This document shows positions 36,058 through 48,521 of a DNA stretch of 64,000 nt, one piece after another (position 1 is the first letter of the stretch; each line of letters starts with the position of its first letter). A program made the translations under genes and the position numbers. This DNA is from Palaeococcus pacificus DY20341 (GTDB lineage: Archaea > Methanobacteriota_B > Thermococci > Thermococcales > Thermococcaceae), in assembly GCF_000725425.1 (NCBI RefSeq), contig NZ_CP006019.1:744001-808000 (forward strand), given 5' to 3'. Under the pieces are notes generated by a model, which ran no database searches, had not been told where the DNA came from, and saw only the letters and a program-made list of their open reading frames with translations.

Positions 36058-36378
36058 TTGTTCGTGGATCCCTTTGTAATTAGATCTATTAATAAGAGCG
36101 AGTTGCGCAAGCGTATTCTCCTTTATTTGTATGAAATACATCCAAACGCTTCTTATCTGGCTGAAATCTCTAGAATTATTCGTTCTGATCCATCAAATGT
36201 AAGAGGGGCTTTAATTGGGCTTGGCAATAGATATAATGGCAGCAGTTCTCTTGTTAGTTTAGGATTGGTAGAAGTGCTCGAAAGAGACGGATTTAAATAT
36301 TATCGTTTGTCTGACTATGGAAAAAAAGTTGTAGAGTCTCTTAGGTCGTATCACTCTTACTATAATAGATTTATGTGA
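36058..36378 (+). CDS. earA: EarA-like winged-helix archaellum regulator
   Basis: 106 aa winged helix-turn-helix protein: INKSELRKRILLYLYEIHPNASYLAEISRIIRSDPSNVRGAL is the HTH, then GLVEVLERDGFKYYRLSDYGKKV the wing. Position directly upstream of the archaellum operon, size and fold fit EarA, the transcriptional activator of archaella shown in Methanococcus maripaludis and conserved in Thermococcales. The start is a TTG at 36058, 5 nt after GGGTGAT; GTG 36064 is an alternative. TACATA motifs, the reported EarA-type element, occur at 37393-37410 before the archaellin genes. The methyltransferase follows after 9 nt. Confidence 0.72.
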   Translation: MFVDPFVIRSINKSELRKRILLYLYEIHPNASYLAEISRIIRSDPSNVRGALIGLGNRYNGSSSLVSLGLVEVLERDGFKYYRLSDYGKKVVESLRSYHSYYNRFM

Positions 36379-36387
36379 GGTGTAATC

Positions 36388-37347
36388 ATGAACAAACTAA
36401 TCAGAATGTTGGATACGAATCTTTCCGCTATTATAGATCTCTCAATGTTTAATTTAATTAGAATCGGGCTGAAATATGGCATATTTAATGAACTAGATGG
36501 TAGACGACATTATGCAGATATTTTAATGGCAATCCCAATCAAAAACAAACCTTTATTGAAGTCTCTTTTAGATACATATGGTAAAATAGGTGTCGTGGGA
36601 ACAGGATTTAATGAAATATGGGCGAAGGATTTTTATTATAAATTAGCCCTAACTAAGGAAAAAAATAAATATTTAATCCCAGATTGGATTCCAATTTTTG
36701 AAGAGATATATAAAATGATAGATTATGCTGCGATCTCTCCGGAACATCCAAAAATATTGATGGATTTTGACAAAGACGCTGATTTTTGGGACATGAGACT
36801 AAATACTGGGCTTAATAGTGTATATAGGCACCTCATAAAAAGAATTGGCTTGCTGAGAGATGGAATGAGAGTTTTAGATTTAGGATGTGGTTCTGTTTCT
36901 CCTGTTGAAATTGGTCGTTTTGTGGGCCCTAATGGTGAATATGTAGGAGTTGACTTTTCTCCGGGCACTTTAAGCATTGCAAAACAAAAGATTAAAGATT
37001 TAGGACTTGATTGGGTTATATTAAAAGAGATGGACATAAGAAGTATAATACCAAAAAGAAAGTACGATGTAGTTATCATGAGCTTTGTTTTGGAGTATAT
37101 TCCTGATATTCAAAGTGTGATTAGAAAAGCTGTGCAGGCATTGGATGAGAATGGAAAGTTAGTAATTGTTGATCCATTTAGAGAGAACTATCCAGATATA
37201 GAAGCGTGGGAGTTCTTTGAAAGCCTTACAAAGGAATTTGTTAAGTTCCCAAGTAAAGCTGAAATAATTAATGCTCTTGAGTACAATGGCTATACATTTA
37301 TACCCCGTGAATTTGGTAAATCTGTTTTGGTATTTGAGCTGCAATAG
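36388..37347 (+). CDS. archaellum-associated SAM-dependent methyltransferase
   Basis: 319 aa. The N-terminal ~110 residues resemble the winged dimerisation domain of O-methyltransferases (MFNLIRIGLKYGIFNELDG), followed by a class I Rossmann domain with motif I VLDLGCGSVSPVEIGRF, motif II YVGVDFSPG and the motif IV region YDVVIMSFVLEYIP. A methyltransferase gene in this place is known from the P. furiosus archaellum cluster (called fam); its substrate is unknown. It could methylate an archaellin, a glycan of archaellin, or a small molecule. ATG 36388 follows gaggtg, and it is co-directional with the regulator. Confidence 0.75.
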   Translation: MNKLIRMLDTNLSAIIDLSMFNLIRIGLKYGIFNELDGRRHYADILMAIPIKNKPLLKSLLDTYGKIGVVGTGFNEIWAKDFYYKLALTKEKNKYLIPDWIPIFEEIYKMIDYAAISPEHPKILMDFDKDADFWDMRLNTGLNSVYRHLIKRIGLLRDGMRVLDLGCGSVSPVEIGRFVGPNGEYVGVDFSPGTLSIAKQKIKDLGLDWVILKEMDIRSIIPKRKYDVVIMSFVLEYIPDIQSVIRKAVQALDENGKLVIVDPFRENYPDIEAWEFFESLTKEFVKFPSKAEIINALEYNGYTFIPREFGKSVLVFELQ

Positions 37348-37392
37348 CCCCTTTAACTCTTTTATGTCTTATAATTTCTAGTGGTATTTACC

Positions 37393-37410
37393 TACATATG
37401 TACATACATA
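37393..37410 (+). promoter_or_regulatory. TACATA motifs, candidate EarA binding site
   Basis: Three copies of TACATA (37393-37398, 37401-37406, 37405-37410) in TACATATGTACATACATA, 30-50 bp upstream of the archaellin TATA box. TACATA is the element described for EarA-controlled archaellum promoters. Confidence 0.6.
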
Positions 37411-37440
37411 GTTGTGTGCATAGACAAAAACAAAAAATTG

Positions 37441-37450
37441 CTTTATATTC
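37441..37450 (+). promoter_or_regulatory. TATA box of the archaellum operon
   Basis: ctttatattc, about 50 nt upstream of the first archaellin start; expected transcription start near 37470. Confidence 0.55.
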
Positions 37451-37497
37451 AAACTTCAATAATAATATTGCAAAACTTCCAATGGAGGTGCTAAATA

Positions 37498-38160
37498 GTG
37501 GGATTTTTAGCAAAGAGAAAGAGGGGTGCGGTTGGTATTGGCACCCTGATTGTGTTTATTGCTATGGTTCTAGTGGCGGCAGTGGCGGCGGCAGTTCTTA
37601 TTAACACGAGTGGTTATTTGCAGCAGAGGGCAGAATCTACTGGAAGACAGACGACAAAGGAAGTAGCAACAGGACTACAAATCGACAAAGTAGTAGGACA
37701 TGTAGATCAAAACAATGGTAAAATTGACTTAATGTCATTTTATATTTCAGTTCAAGCAGGCGGAGAAGCAATAGACCTTAACCAAACAAAGATATACTTA
37801 AGCGACGGACAAAACGTTGTTGTTCTTCAATATGGAGGCACTGGTACATACTATAGTAGTTCATTAAGTAATGGTTTGTTTGATACAAACTTAGGAGTTT
37901 GGAACAACTTAACATCAACGACCTTCGGTATTATTGTAGTTCAAGATGTTGATAGTTCTGTCAGATCCAATTACCCAAGCATTAATTCTGGAGACATAGT
38001 AATCTTAACCGCAAATGTAAGCGCGATCTTTGGCAACAATGGAATTTCACCAAGAACTACAGTCACAGTTGAAGTTAGACCTGAGTTTGGCAGCCCAGGA
38101 TTTACAGCGTTTACAACACCACCAAGCTATGGACAGGCAACGGTTATTGAATTGAAGTGA
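37498..38160 (+). CDS. archaellin 1 (major filament protein)
   Basis: 220 aa preprotein. A class III signal peptide [10 protein letters not shown] is cut by the prepilin peptidase before [19 protein letters not shown], the hydrophobic helix that forms the filament core. The variable outer domain follows, with at least two N-glycosylation sequons (NLT, NVS). The C-terminal part has the conserved [16 protein letters not shown] 37498 follows GGAGGTG by 7 nt. Bases 37525-37699 are identical to 38183-38357 in archaellin 2. The stop is 10 nt from the start of the next gene. Confidence 0.95.
37525..37699 (+). repeat. 175-bp identical repeat, copy in archaellin 1
   Basis: Base-for-base identical to 38183-38357; covers the signal-peptide junction and core helix coding region. 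Confidence 0.95.
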
Positions 38161-38170
38161 GGTGGGAAGA

Positions 38171-39187
38171 ATGAGGAAGCGTGGTGCGGTTGGTATTGGC
38201 ACCCTGATTGTGTTTATTGCTATGGTTCTAGTGGCGGCAGTGGCGGCGGCAGTTCTTATTAACACGAGTGGTTATTTGCAGCAGAGGGCAGAATCTACTG
38301 GAAGACAGACGACAAAGGAAGTAGCAACAGGACTACAAATCGACAAAGTAGTAGGACGCATATCAGGGAACAAGATTGACAAAATGGGAATATACATTTC
38401 ACTTCAAGCCGGTGGTGAGCCAATAGATCTGAGCCAAACAAAATTAGTGTTGAATGATCAAAAGAAACTTGCTATATTAGAGTACAAGGACTTTACAAGA
38501 GTCAAAATCTCCCCAGATATGGATGGAAAGATATTCAATACAACACTCGTAGGTACCAGTCAAAACGTTACTTATAACTCAGCAAGTGGAGATACTATTA
38601 GCTTAACTGTAAGCGGAACATTAGAGCAAGATTCAAATGGTAACTACGTTGGTACTCTAACAGTAACTGGTGGAAGCCTTAACACAACTTCAGCCAACAA
38701 CGCTAACTTCACAATTTCAAGTGGATACCTTGAGGTTACAGGAAACAGCGGCAATAACATCATAATTACCTCAGGATATTTGGCTACAAACACTGGTAAA
38801 ACATTGCCTGTGAAATATGCCAATTTAACTAGTCCAAAATCACTAAGTGGAGGTAGTGTACAATTTAGTGCAGACACAATAAACAGCGGAAACATTACAA
38901 TTGCATCCATATGGAATGTTTTGGACAGTGACAATACTCACTTTGGACTAATAATTGTCCAAGACGTTGATGGATCACTGAGCGGTGATGTTCCAACAAT
39001 AACATCGGGCGACATAGCAATTATTGTAGTTGATACTAAAGCTGTCTTTTCAGATACCAGCGGAATACCAACAAGGACAACAGTGAGTGTTGAAGTTAAG
39101 CCAGAATTCGGTGCTTCAGGATTTACAGCGTTTACAACACCACCAAGCTATGGAATTGGTAACAATCAGGTCATAGAGCTTAAATGA
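38171..39187 (+). CDS. archaellin 2 (long form)
   Basis: 338 aa from ATG 38171 (GAGGTGG upstream; the GTG at 38162 overlaps that site). The signal peptide is very short, MRKRG, before AVGIGTL. The core helix is encoded by DNA identical to archaellin 1. The protein is about 120 residues longer, the excess being a Ser/Thr/Asn-rich central insert with about six N-glycosylation sequons (NTT, NVT, NFT, NLT, NIT), suggesting a large, heavily glycosylated surface domain. The end ([11 protein letters not shown]) shares a 38-nt identical stretch with archaellin 1 (39117-39154 and 38096-38133). Confidence 0.95.
38183..38357 (+). repeat. 175-bp identical repeat, copy in archaellin 2
   Basis: Identical to 37525-37699, offset 658 bp. 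Confidence 0.95.
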
Positions 39188-39241
39188 AGTTTTCCCTTTT
39201 TAGTTTTAATTTTTAACTTTAATTTTAGAAGGTGGAGAAAA

Positions 39242-39742
39242 ATGTCCTTCGACTATCTAAAGAACAAATTCAAGAAAAAAAATTCCCAAAAGCACATAGA
39301 AGGCAGCATAGATGATGTAATCTTTGATGCTCAAGAGGGGGAAGCATCTCAAGCAAATGAAGAGAAGATTGAAGAGCTTGAGGAGAAATTGAACAATACT
39401 ATGGCTCAACTTTCAGAAGTTGAAAATGAAATTCCTAGGATTAAAATGGGAATAGATACTCTAAAAAGCCAGATACAAGAGATAAGAGGGGATATAGACA
39501 GTTTAGACAAAACAATAAAAGATGTCATGATGCTCTACGAGGTAGTTTCTGAGGAAATTAATCCTTTTAAAGACACCAGAGGGAACAATCCAATTTTAAG
39601 CGAAATTCAGGAACTGAAAGAAGCAATAGAGGAGTTAAAAACTGAAATTGCTCAAATAAAGGCGGATTTAAAGCTCATATCTACTCGTGGAGTTGATTTA
39701 GACTCTCTAATATATGATGTACTTTCGGAGGGCTACGAATGA
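39242..39742 (+). CDS. arlC: archaellum switch protein ArlC (FlaC)
   Basis: 166 aa, no membrane segment, predicted coiled coil over much of its length (EEKIEELEEKLNNTMAQLSEVENEIPR), then VMMLYEVVSEEINPF, the motif shared by FlaC/FlaD-E proteins. In Euryarchaeota ArlC, ArlD and ArlE form the cytoplasmic ring that receives the chemotaxis signal through CheF. ATG 39242 follows aaggtgg. It overlaps arlD by 4 bp (ATGA), indicating coupled translation. Confidence 0.9.
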   Translation: MSFDYLKNKFKKKNSQKHIEGSIDDVIFDAQEGEASQANEEKIEELEEKLNNTMAQLSEVENEIPRIKMGIDTLKSQIQEIRGDIDSLDKTIKDVMMLYEVVSEEINPFKDTRGNNPILSEIQELKEAIEELKTEIAQIKADLKLISTRGVDLDSLIYDVLSEGYE

Positions 39743-40560
39743 TAAGTGAAATAGAAATAGATGAAAAGCTCAAAAAATTGCAAGGAAAAGTGCCATCTAT
39801 ACTGATTAACGATTTGCGAGAGAAGTTAGTAGCTAAAATGGATGTGCTTGAGCCAAAGCAAGTTGATAAAATTATTGAGAAAGTTGTTAATAAGTATACA
39901 TCTCAATCTGATAGATTAGTTATGTTGGATAAGCGAATTGAGGAAATTGGGAGACATCTTGAAGATATTTCAAGAAATCTCGGTAGAACCTATGGAAAGA
40001 ATGAAATGTGGGGTAATGGTGGTAATGTTGTTGATAATGGGGCTTGGGGGATTGAAATAAAGGAGGAGATACCAATGGAAAAGGAGAATAGGTATATGGG
40101 AGAATCTTTTAAGGAACCGAATGACAATAGCACTATACCGGAATTCAACATTCCTAGAGAAGTTGAGTCGGTATTATTTAGTGCCCCAAAAAAGGCATAT
40201 AGGCTGGAGAAGCTACCCAATGATATGATATCAATGATGACTGCCTTTAAATGGCTGGGGTTCTTGATGGAAAAAGTTGGTGTTCAGAACCTTGAAAACG
40301 TCTTGGAGTATTACCATGAACTTGGGTGGATATCCGAAGAGGTTCTTAATGATCTTTTAAAATATGCAAAAGGAACAAAACCCCACCACAGGGAGCCTAA
40401 TTGGAAGCCGGAAGATAAACTGACAATTCAAGATCATGTAATATCACTCCTATTCCTTGAGAGATTGAGGGGGGTTAGAATTAGTAGGGAGACATTAAAC
40501 AGTCTTGAAAGAGAAATGAAACTAATAACAAGGGCAATAGAGGAGTTCTATGGAGTATAG
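39739..40560 (+). CDS. arlD: archaellum switch protein ArlD (FlaD/E)
   Basis: 273 aa cytoplasmic protein. The N-terminal third is helical, a poorly conserved Asn/Gly-rich linker follows, and the C-terminal FlaD/E domain runs from about residue 150 (KAYRLEKLPNDMISMMTAFKWLGFLMEKVG to GWISEEV). It works with ArlC in the motor's switch complex. Thermococcales have no separate ArlE, and none is seen here. The start ATG overlaps the arlC stop. Confidence 0.9.
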   Translation: MISEIEIDEKLKKLQGKVPSILINDLREKLVAKMDVLEPKQVDKIIEKVVNKYTSQSDRLVMLDKRIEEIGRHLEDISRNLGRTYGKNEMWGNGGNVVDNGAWGIEIKEEIPMEKENRYMGESFKEPNDNSTIPEFNIPREVESVLFSAPKKAYRLEKLPNDMISMMTAFKWLGFLMEKVGVQNLENVLEYYHELGWISEEVLNDLLKYAKGTKPHHREPNWKPEDKLTIQDHVISLLFLERLRGVRISRETLNSLEREMKLITRAIEEFYGV

Positions 40561-40569
40561 GGGATTAGT

Positions 40570-41064
40570 ATGGGCTTCAGTGTTTCAGCGTCTTTCGCTA
40601 TACTGATGATTTCCACTTTAATTGCGGTTTCCATACTTTATACTTCATTTGAAGAAACATACTTAGAAGTGAGTAGTTCAAAGGAAGCTCATGACAGTTT
40701 AAGCGTTATGAAACTTAACAGCCGGCTGGATATAGCAAATTGGAGCTACTTAGAAAATGGTAGTTACTACAATGTTTATTTTAATCTCACCAATGAAGGT
40801 TCACTTTTGAGGCCTAATTACTGGGATGTGCTTTACGATGGGATTATAAACTCCAATTATATCTCATTGGAAAGTCGGGAATATATGCTACCTGGTGAGA
40901 GTATTGAATTAAATGTTACTAACATTCCTAAAACTACTCAGATACATTCCATAGTTGCTACAACGGAATACGGATGCTCTTTGAAAATTAAATGGACATG
41001 GGACAACCAAACTAATCAAACTAAGCTTCTTAGTGAGTCATGGTACTGTCCTTTGGAGGGATAG
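40570..41064 (+). CDS. arlF: archaellum stator protein ArlF (FlaF)
   Basis: 164 aa. One N-terminal transmembrane helix (SASFAILMISTLIAVSILYTS) and an extracellular beta-sandwich domain with several N-glycosylation sequons. In Sulfolobus ArlF binds the S-layer and with ArlG anchors the motor in the pseudoperiplasm. ATG 40570 follows ggggatt. arlG starts 3 nt after the stop. Confidence 0.88.
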   Translation: MGFSVSASFAILMISTLIAVSILYTSFEETYLEVSSSKEAHDSLSVMKLNSRLDIANWSYLENGSYYNVYFNLTNEGSLLRPNYWDVLYDGIINSNYISLESREYMLPGESIELNVTNIPKTTQIHSIVATTEYGCSLKIKWTWDNQTNQTKLLSESWYCPLEG

Positions 41065-41066
41065 AA

Positions 41067-41531
41067 TTGGCAAGTAGAGCCATGTCAGAGCTTATATTTT
41101 TCATTGCATCAGTGTTAATAGCAAGTGTGGTAGCGGGGGCGTTATATATGACTACTCAAAATATTGCAGATGGAGTGAAGGATAAAGGCGTTTTACTTGC
41201 TCGAAGTTTAAAGATGGACTTTGCTATAATCAATGATCCTGAGAGTATTCCTCTAGTTAATGGATATTATGTGTTTTATATCAAAAATATTGGTAAAGAG
41301 AGTTTTTTATTTAATTCAAACGGTGTGACTGTGCTTATTGACGGGGAGATAGTAAGTTCTACATTTCTTTCATTTGAGAATATCGATAATCCGGGATCTG
41401 AAGTCTTAGATCCTCATGATATTGGAAAACTTCTCGTTAATTCTACCATCATAGATACGTCCTCTCAATATCATAAAATCACAATTATCTTGGTAAATGG
41501 CAAAAAAAGAAGTTTAGTATTTAAAATTTAG
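41067..41531 (+). CDS. arlG: archaellum stator protein ArlG (FlaG)
   Basis: About 154 aa from TTG 41067, 5 nt after GGAGGG; ATG 41082 is an alternative. MSELIFFIASVLIASVVAGALYMTTQN is the single membrane helix, followed by an extracellular beta-rich FlaG domain (GYYVFYIKNIGKESFLF, VTVLIDGE). Partner of ArlF in the stator. A longer frame reaching into arlF is open but unlikely to be translated. Confidence 0.88.
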   Translation: MASRAMSELIFFIASVLIASVVAGALYMTTQNIADGVKDKGVLLARSLKMDFAIINDPESIPLVNGYYVFYIKNIGKESFLFNSNGVTVLIDGEIVSSTFLSFENIDNPGSEVLDPHDIGKLLVNSTIIDTSSQYHKITIILVNGKKRSLVFKI

Positions 41532-41543
41532 GGGGCAGGGAAC

Positions 41544-42236
41544 ATGGGAATGCTAAAGATTACAATAAAAAATGATGAGCTTCACAGAAGATTGGGGGGT
41601 GGAATACCTGCGGGTACCATAGCTTTGATAGAGGGAGATACGGGCAGTGGAAAGTCTGTATTCTCTCAAAGACTTCTCTATGGCTTTTTATCGAACAATC
41701 ATTCTGTTGCATATATCTCAAGTCAATACACGACTGTTGAATTCATAAATCAAATGTATTCTTTAGGCTATGAAATTATACCATTTTTAATAAAGAAAAG
41801 GCTATCGTTTGTATCGCTTTATCCTCTTTTATCAGATATTTCTGAAGAAGAGAGATTTTTAAATAGGCTCATAAGTGAGCCGAGGATATGGGATGATCCG
41901 GAAGTTACAATAATAGACTCAATAACCCCCATAATCCGTAATAGTACTCCGACTTCCCTAAGAGCTTTTATGGAGCATATAAAAAAGCTCAGTTCTTTAG
42001 GAAAAGTGATCATACTAACAATTAATGAGAAGGACGTGGAGAGGGACATCATTCTAAAGTTAGAAACGGTTTCAACTTTGCTTATCAAGCTTGATGTTAA
42101 GGTTTTTGGCGGGGATTTAAAGAATTCTGCTAAAATTGTGAAATACAACAAAGCGCTGGGCATCTACCAAAAGATAATACCCTTTAGAGTGGAGCCTAAA
42201 GTTGGGTTTATCGTAGAAATTGCGGCGGTGGTATGA
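41544..42236 (+). CDS. arlH: archaellum ATPase-like protein ArlH (FlaH)
   Basis: 230 aa KaiC/RecA-like protein. HRRLGGGIPAGTIALIEGDTGSGKS carries Walker A at about residues 31-38, and VTIIDSITPIIR is Walker B. ArlH binds ATP without much hydrolysis and forms a ring below ArlI that controls archaellum assembly and rotation. ATG 41544 follows ggggg-cagg; ATG 41550 is possible. Its stop is 1 nt from the start of arlI. Confidence 0.93.
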   Translation: MGMLKITIKNDELHRRLGGGIPAGTIALIEGDTGSGKSVFSQRLLYGFLSNNHSVAYISSQYTTVEFINQMYSLGYEIIPFLIKKRLSFVSLYPLLSDISEEERFLNRLISEPRIWDDPEVTIIDSITPIIRNSTPTSLRAFMEHIKKLSSLGKVIILTINEKDVERDIILKLETVSTLLIKLDVKVFGGDLKNSAKIVKYNKALGIYQKIIPFRVEPKVGFIVEIAAVV

Positions 42237-42237
42237 A

Positions 42238-43863
42238 ATGGCCGAGGTTAGTGATACTTTAGATGCCGCGATGCTTAGGAATCCACACCTTAAGAAATAT
42301 GTCGAGACATTTGCTAAAAAGTATGGAAAATTTCCTAAATTTCATGTAAGCTTAAGTAGAGATATGAAAGATATCAAGTATCCAAATATAATATATCCGG
42401 TGGGAGATCCAATTTTTATCCATATATATGGAGATGCAAAGACTGACAGAATGTACATCGTTATAGAGCCCAAAATAGAGACAAAGGATGAGGAAAAAAA
42501 GTATGATATGATAAAAGAAAAATTGCTAGAACTGGCTCCATTACAAAAAATCCCTGAGGATCCTGAAGAATTTGAGATGCTGTTGGATCTGCTTTTTGAT
42601 GAAGCTGTTAAAAAGGTAAATTCTGGGGAGGGCTTTTTAAGAAGAAAGAAAATTCAAATAAGCAAAGAGCAGCTTGATAAGTTCCGCTACTTGTTAAAGA
42701 GAGATATAATTGGAATAGGTCCGTTGGAGGCCCTTGCGAGGGATCCTTATATTGAGGATATTCATATAATAGGTGCAAATTATGTTTCACTCGTCCATAA
42801 AATCTTTGAAGCTCTTCCTACTAATATAACATTTGAGGATAATATAAAGTTGGCAGACTATTTCAAAAGCTTAAGCGAGCGTATAGGACGTCCTGTTAGT
42901 GATAAGAACCCTGTAGTTGATGGAACACTACCTGATGGCTCGCGTATAAATATCTTATACAGCCCGGATGTTAGTATAAACGGGCCCTCTGCAACAATAA
43001 GAAAGTTCTCAGCTACTCCCTTAAGCGTAGTACAACTTGTTAATTGGAACACATTCTCTGCTGAAGTTGCTGCTTACTTGTGGCTCGCTTTGGAATATGG
43101 AATGAGCATATTTGTTTGTGGTGAAACGGCGAGCGGAAAAACAACCACTTTAAATTCCATAATTCCGTTTATTAAACCTAGTGCAAAGATATATACCGCT
43201 GAGGACACTCCAGAAGTTATTGTTCCTCATCCAACATGGCAAAGATTAACTACCAGAGAAAGAGGGCCTGAAGACTCAAGAGTTACGCTTTTTGATCTCT
43301 TGAGAGCTGCATTGAGATCGAGACCAAACTATATCATCGTAGGTGAGATTAGAGGTGCAGAAGGTGCCATAGCATTCCAAGCTATGCAAACTGGTCACCC
43401 AGTAATGAGTACTTTCCACGCAGGAGATATTAAAAAGATGATACAAAGATTTACAGGAAGTCCAATTAATGTTCCTGTTACTTTTATAGACAACCTGAAT
43501 ATTGCACTCTTCCAGCAAGCAGTTTATGTAAGAGGGAAATTCCTCAGAAGAGTTGTGAGTGTTGTAGAAATCGAAGGGTATTACGAAGAAATTGGTGGAG
43601 TCGCTACAAGAAACGTGTTTGAGTGGGATCCAGTAAGTGATAGACACGTATTTAGAGGAATGAACAACTCTTATATCCTAGAGAGAAAAATTGCGGAAGT
43701 AGCTGGCTATGAGGATCCTAAGGATATCTATAATGAATTGTTTTTGAGAGCAAGGATAATCCAAAGAATGATAGAGTTGGGCATTATGGACTACTGGAGT
43801 GTCTATCGGGAGATAAAGAACTTTTATGAGAAAGGAATTCAGGGTTTAAGCTTTAGAATATGA
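42238..43863 (+). CDS. arlI: archaellum motor ATPase ArlI (FlaI)
   Basis: 541 aa GspE/VirB11-type hexameric ATPase that powers both filament assembly and rotation. CGETASGKTTTLNS is Walker A, PNYIIVGEIRGAE Walker B, MQTGHPVMSTFHAG the His box, and RPVSDKNPVVDGTLPDGSRIN the conserved N-terminal-domain motif. ATG 42238 follows ggtggt just after the arlH stop; the upstream ATG at 42220 lies within arlH. Flanked by arlH and arlJ as in all archaellum operons. Confidence 0.95.
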   Translation: MAEVSDTLDAAMLRNPHLKKYVETFAKKYGKFPKFHVSLSRDMKDIKYPNIIYPVGDPIFIHIYGDAKTDRMYIVIEPKIETKDEEKKYDMIKEKLLELAPLQKIPEDPEEFEMLLDLLFDEAVKKVNSGEGFLRRKKIQISKEQLDKFRYLLKRDIIGIGPLEALARDPYIEDIHIIGANYVSLVHKIFEALPTNITFEDNIKLADYFKSLSERIGRPVSDKNPVVDGTLPDGSRINILYSPDVSINGPSATIRKFSATPLSVVQLVNWNTFSAEVAAYLWLALEYGMSIFVCGETASGKTTTLNSIIPFIKPSAKIYTAEDTPEVIVPHPTWQRLTTRERGPEDSRVTLFDLLRAALRSRPNYIIVGEIRGAEGAIAFQAMQTGHPVMSTFHAGDIKKMIQRFTGSPINVPVTFIDNLNIALFQQAVYVRGKFLRRVVSVVEIEGYYEEIGGVATRNVFEWDPVSDRHVFRGMNNSYILERKIAEVAGYEDPKDIYNELFLRARIIQRMIELGIMDYWSVYREIKNFYEKGIQGLSFRI

Positions 43864-43873
43864 GGTGTTTAGT

Positions 43874-45580
43874 GTGAAAAATGGGGCAAGTATCTTTGTA
43901 AAAGCGGATTTGAACATGAAGGATTATCTAAGGAGAATCGTGGTTCCTAATGTAGCTCTCTCTATAGTTCTCTTTATCTCCATCTCTTTTTTGATTAGGG
44001 TATATAATTTTTCACGTTTAGTCAAATTAGCGGTATATATTGTGGCTATTCTACCTGTAGTGTATGCAGCTCTTTACCCTACAGCAAAGGCTAGTTCTAA
44101 ATCAGTTCAAACAAATTCAAGGATACCCTACTTTGCCACCTATTTTGCAGTGCTATCAACAAGTGATGTTGGGAGAGAGGATTTAGTGCTTAATATTGCC
44201 TCTGAAAAGAGTCTTGAACCAATTGCAAGTGATATGAGAAAGATCTATCTTTTAATTGCAAAATTTAACACTAGTTTTCCCAAGGCATTACGTTTCCTTT
44301 CAAAAAGAACCCCAAGTAAAGTTTTCTCAGATTTTCTTGAAAGGTTGGCATACTCCCTCGATAGCGGTGTAGATCTTAAAGAGTACTTACTGCGCGAGCA
44401 AAAAACCGTGATGGATGATTACGAAACATTTTATGAGGGAGCACTTTATGACCTTGATGTGTTTAAGGAGATATATTCATCAGTTATCATTGGAGTTGTA
44501 TTTCTTGTGACGTTCATTATAATAGGACCTCTTATAACTGGCCAAAGCGTTGAAATTTTAATAATATTTTCGCTCATTGTCGTGTTGGCCATTGAAATTG
44601 GGATTTTAGTTGTTATAAAACATAGAATGCCTGAAGATAGAATATGGACTCAAAATGCTATGACATATGAAAGAAAGCAAAAAATGATAAGAAGTATTTT
44701 AATTTCTATTGTGGGAATTTTAATTGTATCTGTGCTTTATGTGTTAATTCTGAAGCCGAGATTTAATATTCCGATTTATCTCTCTCTGGCATTGATCGTG
44801 ACTCCTTTAGCTTATTTTGGGCGTATGCTGGATAAAGAAGAAAGCAGGATACTGATTAAGGATGAAAATTTCCCAGCGTTTATAAGAAGCTTAAGCACGT
44901 CACTGGCATCAAGTGGAGGCTCCTTAGTTTTAGTGCTTAAATATTTAAGCTCTCACGACTTTGGATCTCTAACTAAAGACATAAAGAACTTATACAATAG
45001 AATGGCTCTTAGAGTAAGCGATATGGGTGCTTGGAGGCACTTTAATGCTGATACTGGCAGCTGGTTGATTAGTATGTTTTCAGAGATATTTAGAAAGAGT
45101 ATACGGCTTGGAGCGGAGCCGGAATATGTTGGTTTGGTAATCTCAAGAAATTTTGAAAGACTCATAAGACTTAGAAGGAGAAGAACACAGAGTGTTTCGA
45201 GTTTTAAGGGTGTTATTTTTGGAATTACAGCCGCATTTGCGTTTTCTTTAATGACAGCATTACAAATTGTTGAGTACATAAATAACATATTCTCAAATGT
45301 GCAGGTTCAAGGGGAATTTTTAACAAGCATACTCTTCCTACCATCTGAGCAGAGCCTTGTTCTTACTAGTTATGTAATTATCTTGATTATTACAATTCAC
45401 TCACTCATGTCTTCTATTGCAATAAAGTTTGCAGATGGAGGCCATATTGGCATTTCGGTATATTACTTTGTAGTCTTAATGTGGATCTCTGCAATTAGTA
45501 TGTTTTTGGGTGAGCATATTATAAGTAAGATGATACGCACGGGAAGTATGGTCCTTCCGATAATGGAGGTGATGACATGA
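43874..45580 (+). CDS. arlJ: archaellum platform membrane protein ArlJ (FlaJ)
   Basis: 568 aa from GTG 43874, 6 nt after GAGGTG (GTG 43865 lies in that site). Seven to nine hydrophobic helices; two GspF/TadC-like cytoplasmic domains, for example NTSFPKALRFLSKRTPSKVFSDFLERLAYSLDSG with its conserved Phe/Leu pattern. It is the membrane platform on which ArlI acts. The stop overlaps the next gene's ATG (ATGA). Confidence 0.93.
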   Translation: MKNGASIFVKADLNMKDYLRRIVVPNVALSIVLFISISFLIRVYNFSRLVKLAVYIVAILPVVYAALYPTAKASSKSVQTNSRIPYFATYFAVLSTSDVGREDLVLNIASEKSLEPIASDMRKIYLLIAKFNTSFPKALRFLSKRTPSKVFSDFLERLAYSLDSGVDLKEYLLREQKTVMDDYETFYEGALYDLDVFKEIYSSVIIGVVFLVTFIIIGPLITGQSVEILIIFSLIVVLAIEIGILVVIKHRMPEDRIWTQNAMTYERKQKMIRSILISIVGILIVSVLYVLILKPRFNIPIYLSLALIVTPLAYFGRMLDKEESRILIKDENFPAFIRSLSTSLASSGGSLVLVLKYLSSHDFGSLTKDIKNLYNRMALRVSDMGAWRHFNADTGSWLISMFSEIFRKSIRLGAEPEYVGLVISRNFERLIRLRRRRTQSVSSFKGVIFGITAAFAFSLMTALQIVEYINNIFSNVQVQGEFLTSILFLPSEQSLVLTSYVIILIITIHSLMSSIAIKFADGGHIGISVYYFVVLMWISAISMFLGEHIISKMIRTGSMVLPIMEVMT

Positions 45581-47535
45581 AAGAAAAATTTTTATTAATG
45601 ATTTTGTTTCTTGTAGTTATTTCTCAATCGGTCTACGCTGATTCCACGATTTCCGGATGGATTTTAGTTCCAGATAGCGTTAAACTTGGAGACTATTCAA
45701 TAGAGATTAATGATATCTCTATCACAAAGGGAGAAGTATTTGCAATTTTTGAAGGCAAAGGAATGCATAGGGAATATGTAATACCCGTGGGAAAGGAGAT
45801 AAAAGCAGATAACATTAGTTTAACGTACTGGAAACTGATAAGTGGAGAACGTACCTATATATTAACTACTATTCATTTTCCATATCTCCTTGAGGGGCAG
45901 TCTATAAGTTTTGGTGAATATCAGATACTACTATTTTCAACTAATGAAAACAAAACTTCACTTAGAGTTTATGGAAAAGAAGAGAGTAAAGATTTAACAG
46001 TAAAAAGTGGTGAAAGCATCAAATTTGAAAATCTTGAGATTTCTGCAGTTTCAAGACCCGAAATTTTCAACGGATTTCTTATTAAAGATGAAGAATATAG
46101 AATAGGGGACTGGAAGTTGAAGTTTATTGATTACAACGTAACAAATGAGAACGGCACCTTAATAGAGAGGGCAAAAATCGAAATAAATGGTAATACTTTT
46201 GAACTGAAAAAAGGCCAAACTGTGGAAGCTGATGGAGGCATTCTTACAATTGATGACTTTATTGGTGAAAAATACTTAAAGGTGCATTTTGTGATTAAAG
46301 GAGCGTATCTACACATCAATGTGCTTCCAGATTATCATATAAGCCTAAGTGTGGGTAAAACTACAAAACTTGGCCCATATCTTGTTAACGTGGAGAATGT
46401 GTTTGGAAATGAGGCTTACATTTCGATACTCAATCCTTGTGGAAAACCTATCAACAGTGCTTTACTAGTCCCTAACACTATTGGAGCAGGTCTCTATTAT
46501 AATGGCTTGGTAATTGGAGTGCTAAATATCTCTTCAGGCGAAGAAAGAAAAGTAGAACTGATAGGGTTCCTAAATGAAAAAGATGTGCCTAAATTGGAAG
46601 AATATGCATTGTTAAACATCACTCTTTTGGCACCAAAGAATGTTAATCAATACGAGCGCTTCACATCTTACATTTACTTAAAAAATGATGGTAAGGTTGA
46701 CTTAAATTTCCTTCAAATAACTCCTGTTCTTTCCCAGGATTTTGAGATAGTAGGAACTTATCCAACTTTCTTAGAGGAACTTAAAGTAGGGGAGACTCAA
46801 AAAATTCCCATAGAGCTAAAAGCTTTGAAAGGAGGCTCACTTTACCTTGGACAGATAAAAGTTAGCGCTTATGCCCAATTCGAGCTGGCATGCAAAGGAT
46901 TCGAGAAAATTGAATTTACGTCAAATGAGGATTGGATAAATGTGAATGAGTATAAGCCTAAGTATGTCACCGTAATCAATACAGCTGATGGAAAAGTAGG
47001 GGATAAAATAAAAGTCAATGTGACAGTTAGAAGCTTTTCGAACTTTGATGTTCCATTCACTTTATCCGTTGCTTTACCCAAAGAATTTGCTATCTATACC
47101 ACAGACTTTACAAAAATTAACGGGAATATTCTTTATGTTACCGATACTTTATCCACGAATTCGTCAAAGACCTATACATTCACAATGATTCCTAATAAAG
47201 TTGGGGAGTTTACAATAGAGACTTCCTTGGAGTCTAAGGGGAACTTCTTTAAAAATCACACTACATTTAAAGTTTATCCCAACAATCCATCGACAAACTC
47301 TCCATCTAGTACAGCCACGCCTACATCTAATTCCTCTAAAATTTCAACTACTACAATTACGCAGACGATGGAAAAAACTACAACTGTGTCAAAAATAGTT
47401 GTTCAAAATACTACCGTTGTTCCATTGAAATCGAAGCTTTTATTTAGTGGAGGAGGCTTTGTAAGTGGTGTAGCATTTATACTCTTACTAGCTTACATTG
47501 CTGCCAAACTAGAAGAACGGAGGGAGAAGTCATGA
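45577..47535 (+). CDS. secreted membrane-anchored protein of unknown function in the archaellum operon
   Basis: 652 aa. Residues 1-21 (MKEKFLLMILFLVVISQSVYA) are a Sec signal peptide. About 550 residues of beta-rich sequence follow; the stretch ITLLAPKNVNQYERF to about residue 450 and PKYVTVINTADGKVGDKI onward look like CARDB/NEW3-type Ig-like domains. A Ser/Thr/Pro-rich, probably O-glycosylated stalk (about 575-615) leads to one C-terminal membrane helix (SGGGFVSGVAFILLLAYIAA) and the charged tail EERREKS. I do not recognise a named family. It is translationally coupled to arlJ (ATGA) and cheF (4-bp overlap), so an envelope role in archaellum anchoring is inferred. Confidence 0.8.
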   Translation: MKEKFLLMILFLVVISQSVYADSTISGWILVPDSVKLGDYSIEINDISITKGEVFAIFEGKGMHREYVIPVGKEIKADNISLTYWKLISGERTYILTTIHFPYLLEGQSISFGEYQILLFSTNENKTSLRVYGKEESKDLTVKSGESIKFENLEISAVSRPEIFNGFLIKDEEYRIGDWKLKFIDYNVTNENGTLIERAKIEINGNTFELKKGQTVEADGGILTIDDFIGEKYLKVHFVIKGAYLHINVLPDYHISLSVGKTTKLGPYLVNVENVFGNEAYISILNPCGKPINSALLVPNTIGAGLYYNGLVIGVLNISSGEERKVELIGFLNEKDVPKLEEYALLNITLLAPKNVNQYERFTSYIYLKNDGKVDLNFLQITPVLSQDFEIVGTYPTFLEELKVGETQKIPIELKALKGGSLYLGQIKVSAYAQFELACKGFEKIEFTSNEDWINVNEYKPKYVTVINTADGKVGDKIKVNVTVRSFSNFDVPFTLSVALPKEFAIYTTDFTKINGNILYVTDTLSTNSSKTYTFTMIPNKVGEFTIETSLESKGNFFKNHTTFKVYPNNPSTNSPSSTATPTSNSSKISTTTITQTMEKTTTVSKIVVQNTTVVPLKSKLLFSGGGFVSGVAFILLLAYIAAKLEERREKS

Positions 47536-48521
47536 AGTTAAGGGCTAAAGCAACTATATTAAGTTCTTGGAAGTCAACTACTCATCAATGGAGGGATGTA
47601 ATAGCAGAGCTAAACAAAACGGGCATTATTTTGAACTATGTTAAAAGAGGAGAGGTTATCAAAAAGGAGATGTACGGTTTTTCTAATCTAGTTGACGTCG
47701 GTATGAATATCCCAGATGAAGTTAAACTTAATCCTACACGTGACCATTTTGGATTAAAATTTCGTATAAGGAGTGGGGAAATTTATCTTCTTTTGACATT
47801 AGGAGAGAATCCTTTAATTTTTGATATAAAGGAATTTGAAAACTTTATTGACTCCATTTTCATGGCTATTTTGGATGGGAAAAAAGCTATGCTCCAGTTT
47901 GCAAGGAGCAAAGGTGGAGCAATTAACATGGACTCCAAATGGGATGAAGCAATGATAAGAATTGTTTCGGCGGGAGGAAAAAGGGATGCATTCATAGTCC
48001 AAGGAAAAAAAGTAATATCATTATTTCGCGATTTGGAGGATATGGAAATCGAGGAAGTTGAACTTGGTGAAAAAACTGTAAAGGCTTTAAAATTAACCCA
48101 TAATTATAAAAGTGAGAGCGTAACTTCTTACCTTTATATTCCAAGTAGAAAACTTACATTGTTTTTAATTAGATACATCCTTCTTCATGGTCCTGAGTCT
48201 AGAGAGCTTATGGAAAAGATAGCAGATGAATTTGGAGAAATAAAACGGGATATAGAAGAAGAGCTTCAGAGAGAACTAAAGGAGCTTATGAAGATAAGCC
48301 CAGAAAAGCAGCAGATACTTCTTGCTCTTTACTCCGGAATAAATCCTTTGGAGATACATCAATTTTTAGGAATACGCGAAGAGGATGTGGAAAGGATTTA
48401 TGACGAAATGATAGACGAAGGGCTTCTTAAAATAGTCATGATAAGAAAGATAGTGGATTTGACAATGGATGGCAGAAAAATTGTAAATAAACTGATAAAA
48501 TTAGGAAATATGGAAATGTAG
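47532..48521 (+). CDS. cheF: chemotaxis adaptor CheF
   Basis: 329 aa matching the archaeal CheF family (DUF439, PF04283), which links phosphorylated CheY to the archaellum switch ArlC/D/E. The N-terminal ~200 residues are a PH-like beta domain, and the C-terminus is a helix-turn-helix (ISPEKQQILLALYSGINPLEIHQFLGIREEDVERIYDEMIDEGLL). Overlaps the upstream secreted-protein gene by 4 bp and ends exactly where cheW, on the other strand, ends. Its place as the last gene of the archaellum operon, facing the che operon, fits its bridging role. Confidence 0.87.
   Translation: MKLRAKATILSSWKSTTHQWRDVIAELNKTGIILNYVKRGEVIKKEMYGFSNLVDVGMNIPDEVKLNPTRDHFGLKFRIRSGEIYLLLTLGENPLIFDIKEFENFIDSIFMAILDGKKAMLQFARSKGGAINMDSKWDEAMIRIVSAGGKRDAFIVQGKKVISLFRDLEDMEIEEVELGEKTVKALKLTHNYKSESVTSYLYIPSRKLTLFLIRYILLHGPESRELMEKIADEFGEIKRDIEEELQRELKELMKISPEKQQILLALYSGINPLEIHQFLGIREEDVERIYDEMIDEGLLKIVMIRKIVDLTMDGRKIVNKLIKLGNMEM

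Follow-up and report, generated by a model that had tools for sequence, protein, structure and literature searches.

A large gene for a predicted surface protein follows arlJ directly in the archaellum (arl) island of Palaeococcus pacificus DY20341, and the question that it raises is whether it belongs to the archaellum and, if so, what its product does in the cell envelope. The gene, which encodes 652 amino acids, occupies positions 45577-47535 on the forward strand of the DNA analysed here (64,000 nucleotides of contig NZ_CP006019.1; hereafter the window). Comparison across genomes identifies it as the last member of a conserved arl island, moving together with arlJ. The best reading of the sequence data is that an S-layer-type surface rod was recruited to the archaellum. 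Our favoured explanation, to which we give about an even chance, is that the product is an accessory part of the cell envelope, specific to this lineage, that serves the archaellum of Thermococcaceae as a strut or exit-port subunit between the motor zone and the S-layer.

Position and distribution of the gene

The open reading frame (ORF), with an ATG start, was confirmed as a real gene and is under purifying selection (ratio of nonsynonymous to synonymous substitution rates, dN/dS, 0.12-0.21 in nine close pairs), while evolving faster than ArlJ. As reported in a first-pass annotation made from the sequence, it overlaps both neighbours by 4 base pairs, with ATGA at 45577-45580 and again at 47532-47535. 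The upstream neighbour (43865..45580, forward strand) is assigned to the platform protein ArlJ by a T2SSF match (E 1.6e-18), and the downstream neighbour to CheF by a PF04283 match (E 3.5e-13).

With a profile built from 30 full-length members and a threshold of E 1e-60 or better, a search of 115 genomes of the phylum found the gene in 65, all of which belong to the 94 genomes from the window's family, while the other 21 gave no match at this level; arlJ, searched in the same set, is present in 75. In every one of the 64 genomes with both genes, the 652-residue gene lies directly 3' of arlJ on the same strand. Conversely, of the 19 genomes in the family that gave no match to arlJ, 18 have no copy at this threshold; the remaining one (G026, 75% complete), the only genome with the gene and no detected arlJ, carries a truncated copy interrupted by a stop. 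The association of the two genes is strong (p 6e-11, Fisher test, which ignores kinship). Homologues are thus found beside motility genes and are absent where arlJ is absent, the co-occurrence that the first-pass annotation had proposed to look for, rather than lying mostly away from motility genes. Some of the 18 family genomes that lack the two genes match the profile weakly, at E 1e-4 to 1e-21, and these matches are probably paralogues; the one in G010 is the paralogue a described below. The truncated copy of G026 (L039:5111-6365) lies on a 6.6-kb contig on which no arl gene was seen and is likely a relic.

Eleven genomes have arlJ without the gene; in one of them (G105) arlJ stands at a contig end, and it was excluded from the absence count, leaving ten testable genomes. 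In all ten, pcm is the next gene after arlJ, and in the two whose operons were checked (G036 and G021) the remaining arl genes are present. On the arlJ tree nine of the ten fall in one clade (support 100/99), with G111 apart, so that two losses suffice. The gene is therefore not core to the archaellum, having been lost twice with arlJ retained; since a Thermococcus clade has lost it and yet keeps arlJ, an archaellum can probably exist without the protein, or something else has replaced it. Judged by conserved position the gene belongs to the archaellum operon, whereas judged by presence in all archaella of the lineage it does not, and the stronger notion of an obligate archaellum part has to be given up. 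Downstream of the gene, ten groups of neighbours, counted by any shared ORF, occur in 36 loci, which marks the gene as the edge of the conserved island. This count covers loci with more than 400 bases downstream (L011, with 162 bases, and L044, with 129, were left out), takes L004 and L045 as the same contig and, like the alignment, excludes the fragments L020, L029 and L039 and the duplicate L035. Outside the family, the closest arlJ found is that of G058 (39%); a search of 23 genomes from the phylum of G058 gave short matches only to the gene profile, at profile positions 323-501, in four genomes.

Two irregular copies were noted in passing. In G030 the gene is split over two frames in a low-coverage assembly (L050:9905-11934), either by a frameshift or by an assembly error. 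In G029, which we take to be T. kodakarensis, the order of arlJ, the gene and pcm agrees with TK0049-TK0051, and the match to pcm downstream of the gene falls into two segments, each in another frame, close to the 3' end of pcm (L024 after 3489).

Moreover, the gene appears to have changed hands together with the archaellum. The trees of ArlJ (47 rows, with sequences from L001-L030 represented by the C-terminal part in a 1.5-kb flank) and of the gene (37 rows) divide into types A (19 rows) and B of identical membership, supported at 100/100 in both. These types cut across genera g1, g3, g5 and g6 and imply nine changes on the rpoB tree (45 rows; rpoB comparisons exclude G034 and G061). Over 35 genomes, pairwise distances correlate at 0.75 between gene and arlJ, at 0.60 between gene and rpoB and at 0.47 between arlJ and rpoB; the partial correlation of gene and arlJ given rpoB is 0.66, a value reached by none of 2000 permutations. 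The shared A/B split, together with the nine changes, indicates that archaellum operons were exchanged within the family, with the gene travelling along. For an archaellum link, more weight falls on the constant place after arlJ and on the lack of the gene where arlJ is missing.

The linkage to cheF is of another kind. Among 61 genomes searched, cheF was found in 18 and adjoins the gene in the window's genome only, and a cheF match at E 1e-3 is missing in 17 of 33 gene-bearing genomes (the weak matches of G027 and G040 having been left out of the 33). The first-pass annotation had described the gene as locked between arlJ and cheF; the arlJ half of this description holds throughout, whereas, given the rarity of the other adjacency, the cheF half is true locally only. 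Translation as part of an archaellum-CheF transcript, deduced there from the two overlaps, is a conjecture, and cheF adjacency was found in this genome only. G036 and G021, both without the gene, encode a CheF-like protein (31-32% identity) a few kb ahead of their arl islands (L042:4413-5243 and L043:1158-1991).

With respect to transcription, the published evidence conflicts. PF0329, which by its place after flaJ we infer to be the P. furiosus orthologue, was, like flaJ (PF0330) itself, in no cotranscript detected by reverse-transcription PCR, according to the part of that report available to us (PMC4263178). On the other hand, in excerpts of a study of T. kodakarensis histone mutants TK0050, labelled a 'hypothetical membrane protein', falls with the fla operon: it is down 6.5- and 5.4-fold in two tables, flaJ is down 8.1- and 5.9-fold, and TK0051 (pcm) 4.0-fold in the second table (PMC8155482). 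Among the matches listed in literature searches by locus tag and by position downstream of flaJ or arlJ, which did not cover supplements such as the tables of PMC4858521, no other paper on the gene was found; one match for 'downstream of flaJ' concerns, in the passage retrieved, arnR1 of Sulfolobus (PMC4307647). For the motility of T. gammatolerans, too, the matches listed held no paper on the subject.

Domain architecture and relatives of the protein

The predicted product is a type I membrane protein, and the layout read in the first-pass annotation (signal peptide, Ig-like domains, Ser/Thr-rich stalk and C-terminal anchor in 652 residues) is confirmed by the sequence and by an AlphaFold model. 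On the forward strand, a putative signal peptide (residues 1-21, 45577..45639; cleavage after VYA, set by eye) is followed by four tandem repeats, D1 (24-104, 45646..45888), D2 (105-171, 45889..46089), D3 (172-251, 46090..46329) and D4 (252-336, 46330..46584). Then come two immunoglobulin-like (Ig-like) domains, D5 of the CARDB/TRAP-beta type (340-452, 46594..46932), assigned by domain and fold matches, and D6 of the BatD/DUF11 type (455-570, 46939..47286). The chain ends in a stalk with 22 Ser or Thr among 42 residues (571-612, 47287..47412), the region of lowest conservation, in a transmembrane (TM) helix, hydrophobic over about 620-646 (47434..47511) and the most conserved part (mean pairwise column identity 0.47), and in a short, charged, predicted cytoplasmic tail (646-652, 47512..47532).

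Profile comparison by hhalign establishes D1-D4 (24-336) as tandem repeats (D1-D2 96.5%, D1-D3 94.3%, D3-D4 87.9%, D2-D4 79.9%, D1-D4 directly 18.6%) and D5 and D6 as an Ig-like pair (97.5%). A curated Pfam match to BatD (PF13584) reaches 26.9 bits against a cut-off of 24.1; for CARDB, 19 of the 30 members of the family have a match with E of 0.01 or lower, and the window protein has none. The AlphaFold model, from ten sequences, has a mean pLDDT (predicted local distance difference test) of 83.5 and is confidently all-beta over residues 23-570, with strands from 23 to about 567, pLDDT below 50 over 571-627 and a helix at 618-651. VIA on the whole model describes chiefly D5 and D6 (TRAP-beta, Z 14.1), and a fold search with it returned large multi-domain beta proteins with TM-scores below 0.25 among the matches listed. 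The two cysteines of the window protein, Cys288 in D4 (46438-46440) and Cys439 in D5 (46891-46893), are invariant in 30 members and may form a disulfide between these domains. Sequons number 11 where 6.9 are expected from shuffling, a count reached by 335 of 5000 shuffles, and are enriched 2.2- to 4.8-fold in 29 relatives. Taken together, these features predict a sequon-rich rod of four S-layer-type repeats and two Ig-like domains, set on a stalk and a membrane helix. Pfam domain searches found no enzyme domain in the protein, NCBIfam has no family for the three members submitted, and a sequence search of the PDB gave weak matches only (best 2kl6/3idu at E 0.01), with none for the N-terminal half.

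The kinship with S-layer proteins lies in the repeats. The set used for the major S-layer protein of Thermococcales (PF05123) has 14 rows, taken from 13 genomes, with G002 present twice and L150 and L156 unused. D1 aligns to residues 288-365 of this protein (hhalign 93%, E 3e-7); D2 (41%) and D3 (12%) indicate that region too, though weakly, and D4 reaches 0.4%, with reversed controls for D1-D3 at 0.3-0.4%. The whole profile reaches 67% (reversed, 0.2%), compared with 0.1% for an ArlJ control and 1.4% for an RpoB control. In contrast to these S-layer proteins, the window protein adds Ig-like domains, a stalk and a TM helix, and neither it nor its N-terminal half has a curated Pfam match to PF05123. 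The N-terminal half modelled alone (seven sequences; pLDDT 92.8, predicted TM-score 0.84) resembles, though not uniquely, the fold of the Methanosarcina S-layer protein MA0829, described in a passage of PMC4460559 as having 671 amino acids, a signal peptide and tandem DUF1608 (PF07752) domains. Its structures 3u2g and 3u2h are both matched, and 3u2g has the highest Foldseek probability among the matches listed, 0.98, yet at E 6e-3. VIA, in which most rows cover D3, aligns the model to MA0829 with Z 7.3 (rmsd, root-mean-square deviation, 2.3 over 90 residues), to CcsBA with Z 9.7 and to viral E proteins with Z of about 8. The window protein differs from MA0829 in that PF07752 is over its cut-off in none of 41 genomes and does not appear among the matches of the N-terminal half, which were listed up to E 10; two weak PF07752 matches (E 0.005-0.008) belong to paralogue a, in G010 and G022. 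As far as profiles can tell, the protein appears to carry remote S-layer-type modules and, by family membership, to be no lattice protein.

Furthermore, relatives of this rod stand elsewhere in these genomes. Paralogue a, an orphan of about 625 residues, occurs in G005, G006, G010, G018, G022 and G030, of genera g4/g5 (examples at L064:5962-7842, L066:6385-8280 and L068:4846-6711), and matches the family over nearly its full length (hhalign 99.7% over 583 columns, from five sequences). It differs in context, no arl gene having been seen by eye beside it in G005, G006 and G010, and it is present in G010, a genome without an arlJ match. Surface proteins linked to ATP-binding cassette (ABC) transporters share with the window protein only the N-terminal repeat by profile (95.5% and 94.3%, about 80-97 residues covered); they too have Ig-like domains and a C-terminal hydrophobic end, whereas their neighbour is an ABC permease (of the MacB/FtsX or ABC-2 kind) instead of ArlJ. 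The window's genome itself encodes such a protein, of 606 residues, between ATPase and MacB/FtsX permease genes (L063:5259-9002, about 171258-175001 of G000:C1); in G029, and by eye in G015, an ABC-2 permease adjoins the counterpart. Anchored surface rods of this type stand beside various membrane platforms, and one of them has come to be linked with ArlJ.

Possible roles between motor and S-layer

Archaellum linkage combined with S-layer-type domains on a membrane anchor makes an S-layer-linked anchor or collar, already suggested in the first-pass annotation, the leading guess: the suggestion gains from the constant place after arlJ, the absence without arlJ, the joint exchange and the anchored S-layer-type domains, and loses the lock to cheF and obligate membership. 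In P. furiosus, tomograms described in parts of PMC5517150 show membrane-near periplasmic densities left unassigned and a periplasmic gap of about 34 nm; S-layer gaps of at most 3.5 nm are too narrow for the 11-nm filament, so that local lattice removal is needed, for which one missing S-layer subunit would suffice. The same passages treat the passage of the filament through the S-layer and the nature of the densities as open questions in Pyrococcus. In our model the TM helix would hold the protein beside the motor, perhaps by touching ArlJ or ArlG. The Ig-like domains and the stalk would span the pseudoperiplasm, and the N-terminal repeats would bind to or insert into the S-layer; by our estimate, a distance of some 30 nm is a plausible reach for six beta domains and a stalk of 42 residues. 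Together with ArlF/ArlG, the protein would then connect the canopy to the motor zone, helping to anchor or guide the rotating filament.

ArlF and ArlG, according to excerpts of PMC8978795, are believed to link the archaellum with the S-layer; where the stator parts sit is described there as unknown. Like the window protein they are extracytoplasmic and encoded in the arl operon, but they are small proteins of archaellin fold (PF01917), whereas the window protein has several domains, begins with a signal-peptide-like stretch and bears a TM helix near its C-terminus. Pfam finds PF01917 (Arch_flagellin) in the window's ArlF and ArlG and not in the 652-residue protein, and a stator of the ArlF/G type by descent was dropped on this ground. 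A bolder version of the strut model, which we consider rather unlikely, has several membrane-anchored copies around ArlJ replacing a canonical S-layer subunit at the pole and forming both the port by which the filament leaves and its outer bearing. They would be a further connection from stator to S-layer next to ArlF/ArlG, derived from surface modules in Thermococcaceae.

Several observations weigh against a structural role of this kind. Ten testable arlJ genomes manage without the gene, and the Fisher test for its association with arlJ takes no account of kinship. Physical linkage by itself can explain co-travel in the trees, and the rpoB tree is partly resolved (40 inner branches, 19 starred and 11 open), so that the nine A/B changes depend on that tree. 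The similarity of D1 to the S-layer protein is remote, as the values for the whole profile and for D4 indicate, in VIA the score of the MA0829 match is equalled or surpassed by those for CcsBA and viral E proteins, and sequon enrichment is weak for the window protein by itself. The recurrence of the S-layer-type module in ABC-linked and orphan paralogues may mark it as a general surface module, which weakens the argument that such repeats by themselves mean lattice insertion. Finally, PF0329 was judged to lie outside the fla operon on RT-PCR grounds (PMC4263178, in the part at hand), a test that flaJ itself failed.

The main rival is an archaellum-coregulated adhesin or cell-contact protein at archaellated poles, with no mechanical role in the motor, and we regard it as a real possibility though not the favoured one. 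Several features would suit an adhesin, namely the Ig-like domains, the stalk rich in Ser and Thr, the enriched sequons and evolution faster than that of ArlJ. The archaella of P. furiosus function in adhesion and in contacts between cells (PMC4263178, from a passage), and an accessory adhesin is easily lost in a clade that keeps arlJ. However, the TM helix is the most conserved segment and D1 and D3 rank among the less conserved domains, a pattern that fits membrane contact at least equally, and a position after arlJ kept through repeated exchange is more than an adhesin requires. An improbable alternative, drawing on the likeness of D1 to the S-layer protein and on the local lattice removal stated as needed in P. 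furiosus (PMC5517150, excerpt), is an S-layer remodelling factor, that is, an S-layer-like subunit capping lattice edges or opening the lattice for filament exit; the lack of an enzyme domain in Pfam searches, the unproven lattice insertion and the same module in the ABC-linked paralogues speak against it.

That the gene is a hitch-hiker, a general surface protein at the island's end moved by linkage alone, would account for the joint trees and agrees with the P. furiosus transcripts, which do not join PF0329 to flaJ (PMC4263178, in part). We think this quite improbable, given that no intact copy was found at E 1e-60 in arlJ-less family genomes, that selection on the gene is purifying and that TK0050 falls together with the fla genes (PMC8155482, excerpt). 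A chemotaxis or switch component acting with CheF, an idea that the overlap in the window invites, is scarcely credible: cheF is adjacent here alone among the 18 cheF genomes, about half of the gene-bearing genomes counted have no cheF match, and the predicted cytoplasmic tail has about seven residues. A CheF partner was accordingly dropped for want of conserved cheF linkage, and a polar-cap component because the tail is too short. A gene with S-layer-type domains and an anchor at the end of the arl island offers a direct target in the genetically tractable T. kodakarensis (TK0050); the sole paper found to discuss its status placed it outside the operon, as far as the available part goes (PMC4263178).

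The remainder of the arl island

Upstream of arlJ, the rest of the island runs over 36058..43863 on the forward strand and comprises earA, an S-adenosylmethionine-dependent methyltransferase gene (fam, a label taken from a passage of PMC4263178), two arlB genes, arlC, arlDE, arlF, arlG, arlH and arlI; cheF (47532..48521, forward strand) stands outside the conserved unit. The two archaellin genes of the window lie at 37498-39187, the second encoding 341 amino acids, whereas the B-type islands of G036 and G021 have four and five.

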